From Pygmaiobacter massiliensis (GTDB lineage Bacteria > Bacillota > Clostridia > Oscillospirales > Ruminococcaceae): DNA of 64,000 bases. The position numbers and the translations under genes are program-made. Location: contig JALFTI010000006.1 of NCBI GenBank assembly GCA_022778585.1, positions 28,019 to 92,018 on the forward strand, read 5' to 3'. Shown here in pieces: positions 8,957 through 64,000 of the stretch; the stretch's first letter is position 1, and every line of letters starts with the position of its first letter. The notes under the pieces were generated by a model. That model did no database searches, was not told the DNA's origin, and worked only from the letters and a program-made list of their open reading frames with translations.

Positions 8957-9877
8957 TCAGTCTCTCACTTCCAAATGCAACACATCCGGCCGTGCGTAGT
9001 GTCCGCAGGGGTCAAACTCCATTCGGCTGGCGGAAACCTTAGCCATATCCAGTTCGGCATATACAATCCCTTCCTGGTCCCAAAGCGGCTGGGTAACATA
9101 GTGGCCGTAAGGATCCACCACGCAGCTGCCTCCCCGGCATACAACCTGGTTTAGCGCCGCTATTTCCTGGGGGCAGTTTAGGTCTTTGGGGTAAATATCC
9201 TTGGTGAAATACATATTGCAGTTGATAAAATAGCACCGGCCTTCCAGCGCAATATGGCAGATGGTATTCTGCCATTCCGGGTTGTCGTTGGTATTGGGGG
9301 AAAGGTAAAGTGTAACCCCTTTTTGGTAAAGTGCCACCCGCGCTAAAGGCATATAGCTTTCCCAGCAGATCAAGCTGGCCATTGGTCCCCAAGGAGTATC
9401 TGCAATCGGAAAATAATCGCGGTTGGCATCTGCCCATACCACACGCTCCGCACCAGTGGGCTTCAGCTTGCGGTGTATCGATTCCAAAGCGCCGTCGGGA
9501 TTAAAAATTAAATTGGTATTGTATAGGGAAGCTGTAAGCCTATCTCGTTCCGACACGCCGATGCTGATATACACGCCCAGTTTTGCGGCGGCTTGAGCTA
9601 ACTGGGCAGTTTCAGGCCCGGGCACCAGAATGGAATTTTCATAATAGCGCACCCAATCTGCTCGCCCTTTTTCACTGCGGGCTCCAACCGTAAAACCAAA
9701 GGTCATTCCATAAGGATACCCCGGCACGAAAAGCTCGGGCAGAACAATCAGTTGGGCCCCCTGCCCGGCTGCGGTATCAATTAGTTTTAAGGCTTTGTCT
9801 ATACAGGCCGCTTTGTCAAACAGTACCGGCGCGGCCTGTATTACAGCAATTTTGCAAACAGATTTTAAATCTTTCAT
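8957..9877 (-). CDS. Nitrilase-family carbon-nitrogen hydrolase
   Basis: Member of the nitrilase superfamily, which hydrolyses nitriles or amides. The catalytic triad is visible as Glu48 (VLPELFVPGYP), Lys137 (HRKLKP) and Cys171 (LICWESYMPLAR). The CWExYMPL context and HRKLKPT.ER are typical of true nitrilases (branch 1) rather than amidases, so release of ammonia and a carboxylic acid from a nitrile is likely; the substrate is unknown. The 306-aa length is normal. It stands alone with its own promoter at 9919-9948 and a GGGGGG ribosome site. Confidence 0.85.
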   Translation of the reverse strand: MKDLKSVCKIAVIQAAPVLFDKAACIDKALKLIDTAAGQGAQLIVLPELFVPGYPYGMTFGFTVGARSEKGRADWVRYYENSILVPGPETAQLAQAAAKLGVYISIGVSERDRLTASLYNTNLIFNPDGALESIHRKLKPTGAERVVWADANRDYFPIADTPWGPMASLICWESYMPLARVALYQKGVTLYLSPNTNDNPEWQNTICHIALEGRCYFINCNMYFTKDIYPKDLNCPQEIAALNQVVCRGGSCVVDPYGHYVTQPLWDQEGIVYAELDMAKVSASRMEFDPCGHYARPDVLHLEVRD

Positions 9878-9918
9878 AAACCAAAACCCCCCGTGTTGTA
9901 CAAAAACACATTTTCTTC

Positions 9919-9948
9919 CTTATAACATTTCACACCGGGCAGTGTCAA
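9919..9948 (-). promoter_or_regulatory. Promoter for the nitrilase gene
   Basis: Read on the minus strand, TTGACA (9948-9943) and TATAAG (9924-9919) are separated by 18 bases. The nitrilase ATG is 42 bases downstream of the -10 box. Confidence 0.75.
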
Positions 9949-10506
9949 GCAATGCGCAGATACGGAGGGAGGGTGCCGCAAAAGTTAAGGCGATATTTTC
10001 CTATCCTACCTTTGGCCAAGAAAAGTATTTTAGCCAATGAAAGAAGCTTGTATTTAAATATGTCCGATGGGCGCTTTGTTTTTGCCGATCTGCTGGAGCA
10101 TATAAAAAACTGGAAACAGTTTTCGATTGACTGCGCGCTGGCTGTAGGTGCATACTGGTATTGCTTTGGAAAGCATTTGGTGAAAAGTACCAGGCTTTGC
10201 GGGTGAAAGTACTGTGTTCATAACCGAAACAAAATTTGGTAAAGTGCTTTTTAAATAAAAATAAAGGCGAGGTTTAGGCAAAATTACAATATATGTGAAA
10301 GTTTAGCCTTGTGTGAACAGGCTGAAAAAACACGAAAATTTGGGCCTGTTTCTGTACAAAATGTGAGAAAAAAGTTTTACTGTGCAAAAAAAATATTTTT
10401 CTCCATGGTGTTTTTTACAAATTCAATAACAATTTTCTGGAGATTCTTTACAAAATTCATATTATAACTATATATAACAAGGTATTACTTTATAAACGGC
10501 CCATAA
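9949..10506. other. AT-rich intergenic region without a recognisable gene
   Basis: About 560 bases, increasingly AT-rich toward the right. A 48-codon open frame starting with the ATG near 10061 has neither a ribosome site nor any resemblance I recognise, and I do not call it. Confidence 0.5.
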
Positions 10507-60501: not shown

Positions 60502-62103
60502 ATGAGATCGCATCGTTTTACGCTGGCGCTAATTGCCTTGGCGCTTTCCATTAGCTTGGCCCTTCAGCCGCCGACATTTGCCGCGTCGTGCTTGGTGCAG
60601 TCGCTGGACAGTCAGGCTGAAGCCAGCGCGCTTACTCAGCAGTAGGAACAAGAACCTGTGCAGCCTGATAGTATACCGGAAAACGAAGAACCTGCACAGC
60701 AGCAGGATGATTCTGGTTTGGATGAAAGCGAAATGCCGGCGGACAGTTCTTCTTTTTCTGAACAGTTTGAAGAGCCAGCAGAGCAGGCAGAAGAACCAAA
60801 GCTGTTAGAAACTGAGCCACAGCAGGTATCACAGGTGGATTTTGTCGACAGCGAAACAGTACAAACACAAGAACAAAACAAGGCCGAAGAGCAGAATATA
60901 CAAGCCGGGGCGCAGCAGTTTTCGGAAGACAAAGTTGCCTTAGACGAAAGTAATTTTCCGGATGCCGGGTTTCGAGAATACCTTGCACAGTTTGATGTGG
61001 ATTCGGATGGAATGTTTTCCCAACAGGAACTGTTGGCGGTGACCGCTATTAGTTTAAGAGCAAAACAGATTTCCAATCTGAAGGGAATTGAGCATTTTAC
61101 CGCTCTAACCTATCTTAATGTAGAAATGAATCAGCTCACATCGCTGGATCTCTCGCTGAATACTCAGCTAGAGGTTTTAATTGCGGCCAATAACCTGCTT
61201 AGCCAGGTGGTTTTGCCGCAGGCTGGCTCCAACAGCATTCTGCGGAAGGTAGACCGGATTGGCAATCAGTTGACCGAGCTGAATCCAGACGGAATGAGCG
61301 GGTTGCGAATGCTGGCTGTGGATGACAACAAATTGACCACATTGGATCTGCGGGACTGTCCGCTCGATGAAGGGTATGGCTTTTCGGCAAACGATAATTA
61401 TATCACTTCTGTAACCTTGCCTGGCGGAGATTTGGCCTATGAATTTACTACCAATTTGGCAGAACAGCGCTTGCCGCAGGACAAAACGATTGGCTACCAG
61501 GTGGTGTGGTATACCGACCCGGACCACAGCAGCCCGCTTGAAACCAGTGCCGGCGGAATAATTTGCCAGGGCCAAACTTTGTATGCCGCTGTAGAACCAG
61601 TGCAGTATACTCTTGAATTTTTGCCGGGAAACCAGAATGTCACCGGTCAGACCGATTCGATGGATATGGTATACGACAAAGCCTTTAACCTGCCTGCCTG
61701 CGGTTTTATACCGACCGATGACGAATGGAAATTTGCGGGCTGGAACATTTCGGGCAAGCTTTACCAGCAGGTAGAATCGGTTAAAAACCTGACAAGTCAG
61801 CATGGTGCGCGCCTGACCGCGGTAGCGCAATGGAAAGCGAACGATTTTTTTGGCCAGGAATATACCGTGTGGCTGAAAAATGGCCAGCAGGACACGCAGC
61901 AGCTGACGGGAACCTATGGCGAAGCCCTGGTATTGAACGCTTCGTTTAACCGCGAACATTATCATCTGGCCGGTTGGTCTCTTACGCCCGATGATACTGT
62001 ATGGCGCAAAGCGGGTGTTGCAGTTGCACGCAGTTACCGCGATTATACCGTTACGGTGGACGAAAGCCTTCCAGATGGAGTAACCTGTGAACGCATGGGT
62101 TGA
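60502..62103 (+). pseudogene. Secreted leucine-rich-repeat protein split by an in-frame TAG
   Basis: Frame of 534 codons with a signal peptide (HRFTLALIALALSISLAL) and AAAGGA ribosome site. TAG at 60643-60645 (codon 48) interrupts it in the context Gln-Gln-stop-Glu, where CAG to TAG is a one-base change. After an acidic low-complexity linker come an EF-hand-like loop (FDVDSDGMFSQQEL), leucine-rich repeats (LNVEMNQLTSLDLSLN) and two InlB-type B-repeats (FAGWNISGKL, LAGWSLTPDD). No cell-wall anchor is seen. It is probably an inactivated surface or secreted adhesin-like protein. Confidence 0.75.
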
Positions 62104-62378
62104 CGGAAAATCAATACCTGTCGGGATCCCGAATTTAGCATTTTTACTTTTGCCGCCGTCAATGGGCACAGTATGGTTTTTGCTGTTGCAGTCTTGGTAA
62201 TACAGCGCGAAGAATCAGCACACAAAAAACAGAAAACTTTACACAAAAAGGTGGGTGAATTTGTATACAAATAAATTAAAAATACTATTTGTAATAATCG
62301 GTTGGCCGAACATTCCATCCGTTTTTTCAATTGATATCCAATATGAAAATGAAGAAAATACAATTTTAATATTTTCCT
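62104..62378. other. AT-rich segment preceding the repeat array
   Basis: No gene. This stretch is AT-rich and directly adjoins repeat R1, as a CRISPR leader would. I cannot show that it acts as one. Confidence 0.4.
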
Positions 62379-63277
62379 GTCGCCTTCTGTACATAGGGTG
62401 TGGGTAGAAATTGTACGCTCGTGATTTTTCCGGTCGTCACCGTCAAGTCGCCCTTTATGCCAAGAGTGTGGGTAGAAATAGAAAACAATATGGCTCAAGC
62501 CAGCAATTCGGTATTTGTTTCCCTTTGCAGAGAGGGTGCGGGTAGAGATCCCCTTGCTCTGGGCATGGAAATAATGAAAAATAGTCGCTTTTTAAATATG
62601 GCGCGGGTAGAAACAGGGTACGGTGATAGAGCACCGAAAATAGGCGCATTGCTCCTGTTTATCAGGGGCGGGTAGAAAGAATCTTTTGCGGGAAAAGGCA
62701 AAAAATGCATTTGCAGCTATTTGCTATGGGCAAAATGGGGCTAAAGGCGGTATAAAAATGGCGTTATAAAAAAACAGCCCTGTATGTAAAAAGGCAAAGG
62801 AAAGTCTATCGCAATAACATTACTAAAAATTTATGTCACCCATTCTGAAATGGGCGCGGGTAGAAACAACGGAATCGGCGGTTTTCCGTTGGCGGCCTTG
62901 CAGTATCTGTTAGCCGTAAAACTGCTCCTGTCAAGGGCAGTGCCATTTTGCGGCATGGCCTGCAAAAGTTGCCGGTTAAACGAAGTTTATATCCATAATA
63001 TGCCGCCCTTTGCGGGAAGGGTGTGGGTAGAAACCATGTAGCCGATGAAATGTTACACAGCGAACAGGCCCTTTTGAAGCCGAAAACAGTTTTGGATTTT
63101 GGCAAAAAAGCAAGCTGTGTGCTGGTCACGCCTGTGCTGACGCCCTTTTTTGGTAATTTTTAGCAGGAACACAAAAAGAGGTTTTCGGTATAAGGGGTGT
63201 GGGTAGAAATGCGCCCGGGTTTTCGAACCCGTAACCTTCCCCAAGGCTACCCTCCAGCTGGAGGGTGTGGACAAAAC
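62379..63277 (+). CRISPR. Degenerate CRISPR-like array, type I-C-like repeat form, no cas genes
   Basis: Nine copies of a 31-33 base repeat of form GTCGCC-stem-loop-stem-GYGYGGGTAGAAAY: R1 62379-62411, R2 62447-62479, R3 62517-62549, R4 62584-62614, R5 62647-62679, R6 62835-62867, R7 63002-63034, R8 63178-63210, R9 63246-63277. Gaps R1-R5 and R8-R9 are 35, 37, 34, 32 and 35 bases, typical of type I-C spacers. Gaps R5-R8 are 155, 134 and 143 bases and may hide decayed copies (for example near 62921-62945). The 3' tail is conserved. The stem sequences differ between copies, and several remain paired. R9 has a changed 3' end, as terminal repeats often do. Confidence 0.6.
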
Positions 63278-63413
63278 AGCAAACCGTTCATTTGCTTAGC
63301 GGCGAAACGGTTGCTTTGCCGGTGAAAAGGTGGGTAAACTGCGTTGCCGGTAGGACAAAAATGCGTGCCTTGTATACTGCTGTAAAAATAGCAGGCCAAG
63401 GTACCGTAAAAGA

Positions 63414-63456
63414 AAAAATCCCCCTGCGCAATAGAAAATGCGCAGGGGGATTTTTT
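63414..63456. terminator. Bidirectional terminator downstream of the recombinase
   Basis: AAAAATCCCCCTGCGCA (63414-63430) pairs perfectly over 17 bases with the arm at 63439-63455. Confidence 0.92.
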
Positions 63457-63461
63457 ATCTT

Positions 63462-64000
63462 TTACTGGAAAAGCGAACAGGTGTTACCTGTGCCGGTTTT
63501 ATTTCCGGGGATTCTTAATAGCAGCCTGTCATGTCCAAACATCTCTGCTGAAATGTCCCCGTTCACCACTCCCGCTTCGTCCAGCAGAAAGCCCCGGGGA
63601 AGATCGGGCGCGCTCCACACGCCCTTGAAAAGATTGCTTTCCAGAGAAACTCTTGGGTATTTCTTCTTCCCGTCCACCGTGCAGATCACCGTCTGCCGGG
63701 TGGGGGCAAGATCCAGCACCCACGCAAACCGGTCGCCGGGCAGCGGGGTAATCTGCCTGACAAAAGTCTCGATGAACCACTCGTTCACCTTGCCGTCCTC
63801 CAGCCGCACCGCCTCACAGAGGGATGCCTCGATGGCGTCCATATCCAGCCCTTGGCTGCTCTCGGCCTTGCTTTTCAGCGCAGCCCGTTCGTTTTTCGCC
63901 CGCTGCAGCTGCAGGGAGACCTCGCTGCTCTGGCTGAGGAACTGCTCCAGCGTGATCCGATCTGCGGCCCGCATGGCAATCAGCTTTTCCACCATGCCGT
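63462..64000 (-). CDS. Probable large serine recombinase, C-terminal part
   Basis: The frame is open to the window edge, so the gene starts outside. The visible 178 residues contain a coiled-coil-like segment (LEQFLSQSSEVSLQLQRAKN), then VNEWFIETFVRQI and beta-strand-rich sequence. This matches the region after the zinc-ribbon in transposon- or phage-type serine recombinases (FIExIxV-type motif). The catalytic domain is not in view. If right, it marks the edge of a mobile or formerly mobile element. Confidence 0.5.
   Translation of the reverse strand, partial: GMVEKLIAMRAADRITLEQFLSQSSEVSLQLQRAKNERAALKSKAESSQGLDMDAIEASLCEAVRLEDGKVNEWFIETFVRQITPLPGDRFAWVLDLAPTRQTVICTVDGKKKYPRVSLESNLFKGVWSAPDLPRGFLLDEAGVVNGDISAEMFGHDRLLLRIPGNKTGTGNTCSLFQ

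Follow-up and report, generated by a model that had tools for sequence, protein, structure and literature searches.

The window, the whole 64,000-nucleotide stretch of DNA analysed here, ends at a contig end, and close to that end lie nine repeat units at 62379-63277, eight of them tail-bearing, the ninth being R9. To their left are a surface-protein ORF and what is left of two cas genes. The features, with the basis for each call, are:

60658..62103, plus strand: LRR / Listeria-Bacteroides-repeat surface-protein ORF (Pfam PF09479, LRR_4)
61998..62103, plus strand: cas7c (Csd2) 3' end, sharing the reading frame of the LRR ORF (blastn/tblastn)
62104..62168, plus strand: 5' end of cas4, decayed, with one internal stop (tblastn/blastn)
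62169..62378, plus strand: AT-rich leader-like stretch before R1 (position; composition by eye)
62379..62411, plus strand: R1 (pitch/tail and covariance model)
62447..62479, plus strand: R2 (pitch/tail and covariance model)
62517..62549, plus strand: R3 (pitch/tail and covariance model)
62584..62614, plus strand: R4, loop two bases shorter
62648..62679, plus strand: R5, stem-to-handle distance two bases shorter, loop one base longer
62835..62867, plus strand: R6 (tail and covariance model)
63002..63034, plus strand: R7 (tail and covariance model)
63139..63210, plus strand: R8, 3' half and handle at 63192-63210, inferred 5' arm at 63139-63148, 43 bases of extra loop
63246..63277, plus strand: R9, handle decayed (GGACAAAAC), stem intact
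63413..63456, plus strand: terminator-like hairpin of 18 pairs beyond the array (2 such sites in the region vs. 2.5 expected)

Eight units have the tail GYGYGGGTAGAAAY in common, from which R3 and R5 depart slightly; in R9 the tail is worn and the stem is paired. With up to two mismatches allowed, the tail pattern matched the window 10 times, 8 of them within the array (shuffle mean 2.4; 0/100 shuffles reached 10). The exact pattern occurs six times in the 2.02 Mb assembly, every time in the array, and a reversed control gave 0. A covariance model trained on R1-R7 and R9 recovers those eight by construction and adds R8 at 15.4 bits, and in the long gaps it detected no extra decayed unit above noise (best plus-strand match 3.5 bits, E 5). 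These three lines of evidence confirm the nine units that a sequence-only reading had placed here. The pitch from unit to unit is 68, 70, 65, 65, 188, 167 and 176 bases, followed by 67 from the end of R8 (63210) to the end of R9 (63277). Measured for R8 from its inferred 5' arm, the gaps are 35, 37, 34, 33, 155, 134, 104 and 35 bases; five of the eight are thus 33-37 bases long, the type I-C-like spacing noticed earlier, and the other three 104-155. The two arms of R8 lie apart, with a matching arm, GACGCCCTTT, 43 bases upstream, and 63139-63148 is probably the missing 5' arm. Across all units 65/72 stem cells are paired, after manual setting of the register in R4, R5, R8 and R9, and folding is weak in R2 (-2.0 kcal/mol) and R4 (-2.8 kcal/mol).

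The units have the form of a type I-C repeat, that is, about 32-33 bases with a GTCGC start, a stem-loop and a GAAAY tail, with R3, R5 and R9 as exceptions both at the start and in the tail. Cas8c, the type I-C marker, was found in 49/198 genomes searched and is absent from the window's own genome and six sister genomes; the analysis took in the neighbourhoods of all 49. Among the first 20 Cas8c stretches an array was detectable by 20-mer search in 16, of which 14 end in GTGG[AG]T[AT]GAAAT (the TAGAAAT form in three: L045, L046 and L049) and the remaining two in GTGAGTTGAAAT. The closest in layout, L049, has the repeat GTCGCCCTCCCCGCGGAGGGCGTGGGTAGAAAT with a tail of exactly GTGGGTAGAAAT, is organised as the window units are, and retains all seven cas genes. 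When the named genomes were scanned for two such tails at CRISPR pitch, 16 stretches were returned, many of them uniform; varied repeats occur in L070, L071, L072, L079 and L081. The I-C arrays of relatives (L049, L045, L046, L073) thus share with the window a 33-base repeat, a GTCGCC, GTCACC or GTCGCT start, a hairpin, the tail GTGG[AG]TAGAAAT and, where listed, a pitch of 66-70, but unlike the window they have uniform repeats and adjoining cas genes. The suggested comparison with type I-C repeats gave matches to intact loci.

To look for remnants of the operon itself, 350 Cas protein pieces from the examined loci served as queries. The ends of cas7 match 61999-62097, best with the Cas7 of L073 (78% identity over 32 aa, E 2.7e-13), and the starts of cas4 match 62100-62168, best with the Cas4 of L081 (tblastn, E 2.3e-6); each of the top three Cas4 matches terminates at 62168. 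A cas7c end followed by a cas4 start is the order of the intact operon. The same junction is seen in L081, where the array comes after cas8c-cas7 and a cas4 stub, and window positions 61998-62167 match it by blastn (121/176 positions, E 2e-15). Beside the array these two remnants are all that remains of the cas operon, and the contig ends right of the array. Further candidate remnants around the LRR gene or right of the array were rejected: among the three best rows per gene none was better than E 9e-4, and these weak matches, which fall within the LRR ORF, within or close to the right-end ORF, or on the minus strand, were taken as chance.

The gene to the left had been described as a broken surface gene, in a window with no cas genes. 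It is an LRR surface ORF by Pfam, but its final 34 codons come from the cas7c end, since the cas7 ends align at 61999-62097; and while no intact cas gene is present, the ends of cas7c and cas4 are. Compared with L081, 20/31 differences in the cas7 remnant fall at third codon positions, and 16 codons differ synonymously vs. 8 nonsynonymously, as if the remnant had remained protein-coding through most of the period after the split from L081, be it in cas7 itself or, at a later stage, within the LRR protein. Among 120 listed relatives of the LRR protein (729 were found), a pattern check detected the cas7 tail in P0001 alone, which is 99% identical to the LRR protein and represents a cluster of 10 member sequences.

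The assembly, which comprises 28 contigs and is 97.9% complete, yielded no Cas1, Cas8c, Cas5 or Cas7 at E 0.001, and Cas7 is missing from all 7 genomes of the genus. One of these, G006, carries a I-C array (L137) despite having no Cas8c or Cas7 in its genome. At the same locus in sister genomes (L067, L068, L069, L064), DNA homology stops after the GGGtGRT gene, and in the 3-20 kb covered there the tail pattern does not occur. Searched against 61 genomes, the DNA of the whole array matched only itself, apart from one 28-base match in one relative. The GGGtGRT protein encoded left of the array shares 85% identity with its counterpart in G198 and 74-93% with those of genus members, identities by which the window genome and G198 appear to be close kin.

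Could the array instead be an undescribed, non-CRISPR class of structured RNAs, as had been offered as a second reading? Nine copies of a hairpin with a conserved tail would fit, and Rfam has no gathering-level match over the window except one tRNA elsewhere, and none at E<=1 over the array. However, three control I-C loci are likewise without an Rfam match, so that Rfam is uninformative as a test. The repeats have the sequence, length and pitch of a type I-C locus, the cas7-cas4 scar belongs to such a locus too, and L081 contradicts a separate class as well; we rejected it on the repeat anatomy and the scar and consider it hardly credible. A type V-A reading on the opposite strand was also discarded, as the stem has no partner there (judged by eye). 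The array is a type I-C CRISPR in origin, and this origin is settled by the I-C repeats of relatives, the cas7/cas4 scar, the loss of Cas1, Cas8c, Cas5 and Cas7 from the assembly, and the intermediate seen in L081. "Decayed CRISPR" was thus right as to origin.

The repeats are, however, far from identical. Mean pairwise identity of the stem part is 0.48 (ungapped, and lowered in part by register effects in R4 and R5), vs. the near-identical repeats of a I-C array. At other loci, where 52/68 had a measurable array, the lowest values are 0.59 (L071), 0.65 (L072, largely a register effect, because three of its four repeats differ little) and 0.73 (L081). Divergence is distributed unevenly within the units. 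R1-R5 are consecutive at CRISPR pitch and were located by it, which makes their tails a fair measure, as the tail was not the criterion for picking these units: the handle GGGTAGAAA has changed in 1/44 cells, vs. 21/90 in the arms (Fisher p 0.0011). The tails of R6-R8 are uninformative on conservation, because those units were recognised by them. This contrast bears on the main rival to any functional history, plain neutral decay, in which the operon was lost at one stroke, the repeats were thereafter unconstrained, and the remaining pairing is an ancestral remnant plus chance. The absence of Cas1, Cas8c, Cas5 and Cas7 from the assembly is what such decay would leave, and wear is visible at the array's far end (R8, R9, the long gaps), which is probably decaying now, but handles almost unchanged beside altered arms are not expected from it.

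Neutral decay would also tend to break stems, and the earlier reading had held that divergent stems stay paired beyond what random decay allows. The unit's own arms pair in 65/72 cells vs. 59.9 when arms are swapped between units (p 0.0034, in the hand-set register of R4, R5, R8 and R9), with p 0.001 for the inner four pairs; for six units (R1, R2, R3, R6, R7 and R9 in a shifted frame) the p value is 0.017, or 0.058 with Watson-Crick pairs alone. Register-free folding of own vs. swapped halves in eight units gave p 0.018-0.026. When eight units are aligned with MAFFT, 79.7% of cells are paired vs. 71.2% after shuffling (1/500 shuffles), five pairs show double change vs. 1.9 (1/500), doubly changed cells number 5 vs. 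2.2 (reached in 22/500), and the covariation score is 0.344 vs. 0.211 (reached in 3/500), with the tool's own warning that related sequences can exceed such shuffles; when the partner is slid by +2 columns, 71.9% of cells pair nonetheless. Counted by hand over all nine units, pairing is kept after change in 17/24 departures vs. 14/36 in other arrays (p 0.015). This excess, the arm swaps and the G-U bias described below argue against neutral decay. In its favour, pairing survives in just 5/10 departures, also hand-counted, among the five units whose register was left unadjusted (p 0.39 vs. 14/36). Covariation across the stems is therefore modest, at p about 0.003-0.03, and leans on the hand-registered R4, R5, R8 and R9; the claim of pairing beyond random decay stands to that extent, and the five unadjusted units alone do not show it. 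We regard neutral decay as unlikely, though a serious contender.

In the window stems G-U cells outnumber A-C cells 13:2 (p 0.0037), or 7 to 2 when counted by columns; four of the 13 share one column and may be one ancestral state. Since G-U would read as A-C on the opposite strand, the bias points to a plus-strand transcript, from the leader side. Departures in other arrays (including L071, L081 and L112) show a G-U to A-C ratio of 11 to 9. The bias also bears on a DNA-level explanation. Template switching acts in hairpin DNA whatever its use, and by re-perfecting arms such palindrome repair could make stems covary with no RNA function; the inner arms of R9 and R6 are indeed perfect. Repair of this kind predicts Watson-Crick arms and no strand bias, yet 13/65 paired cells are G-U and 2 cells A-C, and it leaves the conserved handles of R1-R5 unexplained unless hairpins mutate faster. 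We think it improbable. The best explanation of the pairing is that crRNA hairpins were once under selection, rather than that the units belong to another class of RNA.

Relatives with reduced adaptation genes show what may have preceded the present state. In Ca. Ruthenibacterium merdigallinarum (genome G198; loci L081/L138) cas3-5-8c-7 is kept, cas4 and cas1 are in fragments, no match to cas2 was found beside the array, and the array is present; a second Cas1-like ORF lies elsewhere in the genome, its letters resembling what we take to be the I-E kind. The L081 array includes the compensated variants GCGCCCC/GGGGCGC and GCACCCC/GGGGTGC. L081/L138, together with a second fragment of that genome, L071, shares with the window the cas7-cas4 junction, the tail GTGGGTAGAAAT, adaptation genes in fragments and varied repeats with some changes compensated, and differs in having cas3, cas5, cas8c and cas7 present and a higher stem-part identity. 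The L081 locus thus shows an intermediate state. On the minus strand of L071, at 329-886, a 185-aa ORF with a P-loop-like start (GVNGAGKSSLTGS) is flanked by two decayed I-C repeat clusters.

In front of the orphan I-C array L137 (G006, 9779-10490, minus strand) lies a cas2 fragment (E 8e-13), perhaps along with the final 11 aa of cas1 (E 0.13), and one repeat of the array is doubly compensated (GTCACTCCCC/GGGGAGTG). The array shares with the window the genus, the absence of Cas8c and Cas7 from the genome, and leftover cas sequence beside it, in this case an end fragment of cas2; unlike the window, it has the tail GTGGATTGAAAT and repeats that are still near-identical. In another genome, G111, L120:9905-15442 holds cas3 (a partial match), cas5, cas8c and cas7 with cas4-1-2 absent alongside; no Cas1 was found in that genome, and the L120 stretch has no array by the tail pattern.

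We then sorted the measurable arrays by the state of the adjoining cas1, dropping L053, L074, L076, L080 and L085 as duplicates or of other layout. Beside a full-length cas1 (38 arrays), 6/21 stem departures keep the pair, 8 of the 21 coming from L094. Where cas1 is absent or partial (L071, L075, L081, L110, L112 and L137, with L071 and L137 grouped by hand), 10/15 keep it (p 0.026), L075 and L110 contributing no departure; adding the window's departures to this group gives 27/39 (p 0.003). Four further arrays, whose stretches contain no cas gene, give 11/20, all from L077. Arrays beside a lost cas1 thus retain stem pairing after change more often than those beside an intact one, a small contrast from small numbers that are not independent, as L071 and L081 are one genome and L137 was found with a model of the window hairpins. 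The stronger idea that cas1 loss always diversifies repeats was rejected: L110 and L075, without cas1 by tblastn, are uniform, so cas1 loss alone does not show the effect.

The flanks and gaps add several observations. A scan of 62000-63500 gave one promoter-like match, at 62331-62359, vs. 2.2 in shuffles, and it carries no weight because the count is at or below chance. The ORF at 63462-63998 (minus strand) is truncated where the contig stops; neither Pfam (E 0.001) nor NCBIfam (E 0.01) gave a match for it, leaving its earlier label of recombinase unconfirmed. The proposed search of the spacers against phage and plasmid databases yielded no target: the whole array has no blastn match in phages or plasmids, and IMG/VR holds nothing for 20-21-base exact cores of the first 4/8 gaps. 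In the long gap after R5 (62680-62730), an in-frame reading by eye gives NLLREKAKNAFAAICYG, and the segment matches L009 over 25 bases (96%, E 3.4e-5; 28 bases at 93% in another alignment), at a site that presumably is the end of a tatD gene; the segment looks like a spacer or insert of chromosomal type. Between R8 and R9, positions 63211-63245 contain CGGGTTTTCGAACCCG, which forms a perfect hairpin resembling, by eye, a tRNA T-arm.

A much longer diversified array was noticed on a viral-classed contig. At ~2740-6215 of L086 (IMG/VR 3300024054_000362, 221 kb) the tail pattern (mostly GG[AG]TAGAAAC) marks 46 units with strongly diversified GATC-rich hairpins, and the array recurs in L087 (IMG/VR 3300044996_000468) from ~437. 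Register-free folding of its 37 distinct units gave p 0.019. For 23 distinct arm pairs, kept if at least 5/9 positions pair, own arms pair in 180/207 positions vs. 170.7 when swapped (84/20000), with 29 G-U vs. 11 A-C.

We favour, at somewhat better than an even chance, the following history for the window: an orphaned I-C array that likely went through a phase without spacer acquisition in which it was nevertheless kept as a source of crRNA, the effector being lost later. Spacer acquisition copies the first repeat, so an active array stays uniform. Had adaptation (cas4-1-2) been lost first, with cas3-5-8c-7 remaining as in L081, copying from the leader-proximal repeat would have ceased and each repeat would have drifted singly. 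Cas5c cleavage requires a hairpin, and the handle remains on the crRNA. Selection would then have held only what crRNA processing needs, the hairpin cut by Cas5c and the 3' handle. A fixed handle, a free loop and a stem that changes but stays paired are the prediction, and the array shows this pattern: compensatory stem pairs, variable loops and near-constant GGGTAGAAA tails. The effector genes would have gone later, when the LRR surface-protein gene became fused onto the cas7c end, leaving the present orphan. We infer the order of losses, the past crRNA function and the present inactivity; a functional phase is likely, not proven.

More generally, arrays that lose adaptation may enter a state of "frozen memory" in which repeats evolve separately under selection on hairpin and handle and become recombination-proof guides, with the window, L081/L071, L137 and perhaps L086 as its stages. 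We advance this tentatively, as a possibility that we hold to fall short of even. If its repeats did diverge by compensatory change, the array would record, in a natural setting, the demands of the crRNA machinery (a fixed handle, pairing alone in the stem, a free loop), evidence of interference outliving adaptation under selection, and a natural counterpart to engineered diversified-repeat arrays that resist spacer loss. The function of cas1-less arrays would also become testable by counting pair-keeping changes.

Several known systems invite comparison. In CreTA, according to the available text of PMC9458426, repeats are degenerate yet work and resist recombination; as in the window, repeats freed from spacer acquisition diverge, and divergence prevents recombination. 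CreTA's own features are one or two repeats, a toxin RNA and an active CRISPR locus alongside, whereas no Cascade was found in the window assembly. Phages or plasmids carry Racr, an RNA anti-CRISPR, as one or a few mimics of a repeat, frequently near acr genes; the window has nine units beside a cas scar on a bacterial contig and so is not of that kind. The portion of the Racr paper available to us (PMC10651486) states that crRNA is processed by Cas5 in type I-C and that a solitary repeat RNA inhibits this type. Such systems raise the possibility that the units are exapted guides or decoys for another system (CreA antitoxin RNAs, regulatory crRNAs, RNA anti-CRISPRs), and the degenerate but functional repeats of CreTA, the inhibitory repeat RNA and the handles intact here though no cas genes were found in the genome all speak for it. 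Nevertheless, the assembly has no linked active I-C Cascade of the kind that accompanies CreTA and regulatory ectopic repeats, and no I-C effector was found there for a guide to use. Nine units with an adjoining cas scar require no second origin, and we hold exaptation to be a slim prospect.

Orphan arrays and degenerate repeats are mentioned in the available parts of PMC12814883 and PMC4004331, and neither these, nor those of PMC9458426 and PMC1896005, contain a within-array compensatory analysis. Likewise, literature titles and abstracts, a coverage that leaves most subscription journals outside, gave no report of compensatory repeat divergence inside one array. The nearest precedent is Kunin 2007 (PMC1896005), which, in the text available, describes how repeats from different genomes differ by compensatory changes, with G-U pairs among them, repeats within an array being generally identical. 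The window shares with those repeats stem covariation with G-U pairs and a constant 3' end. The array is thus ordinary in origin and less ordinary in its evolution: the covariation of Kunin 2007 lies between arrays of different genomes, whereas that of the window lies among the units of one array.
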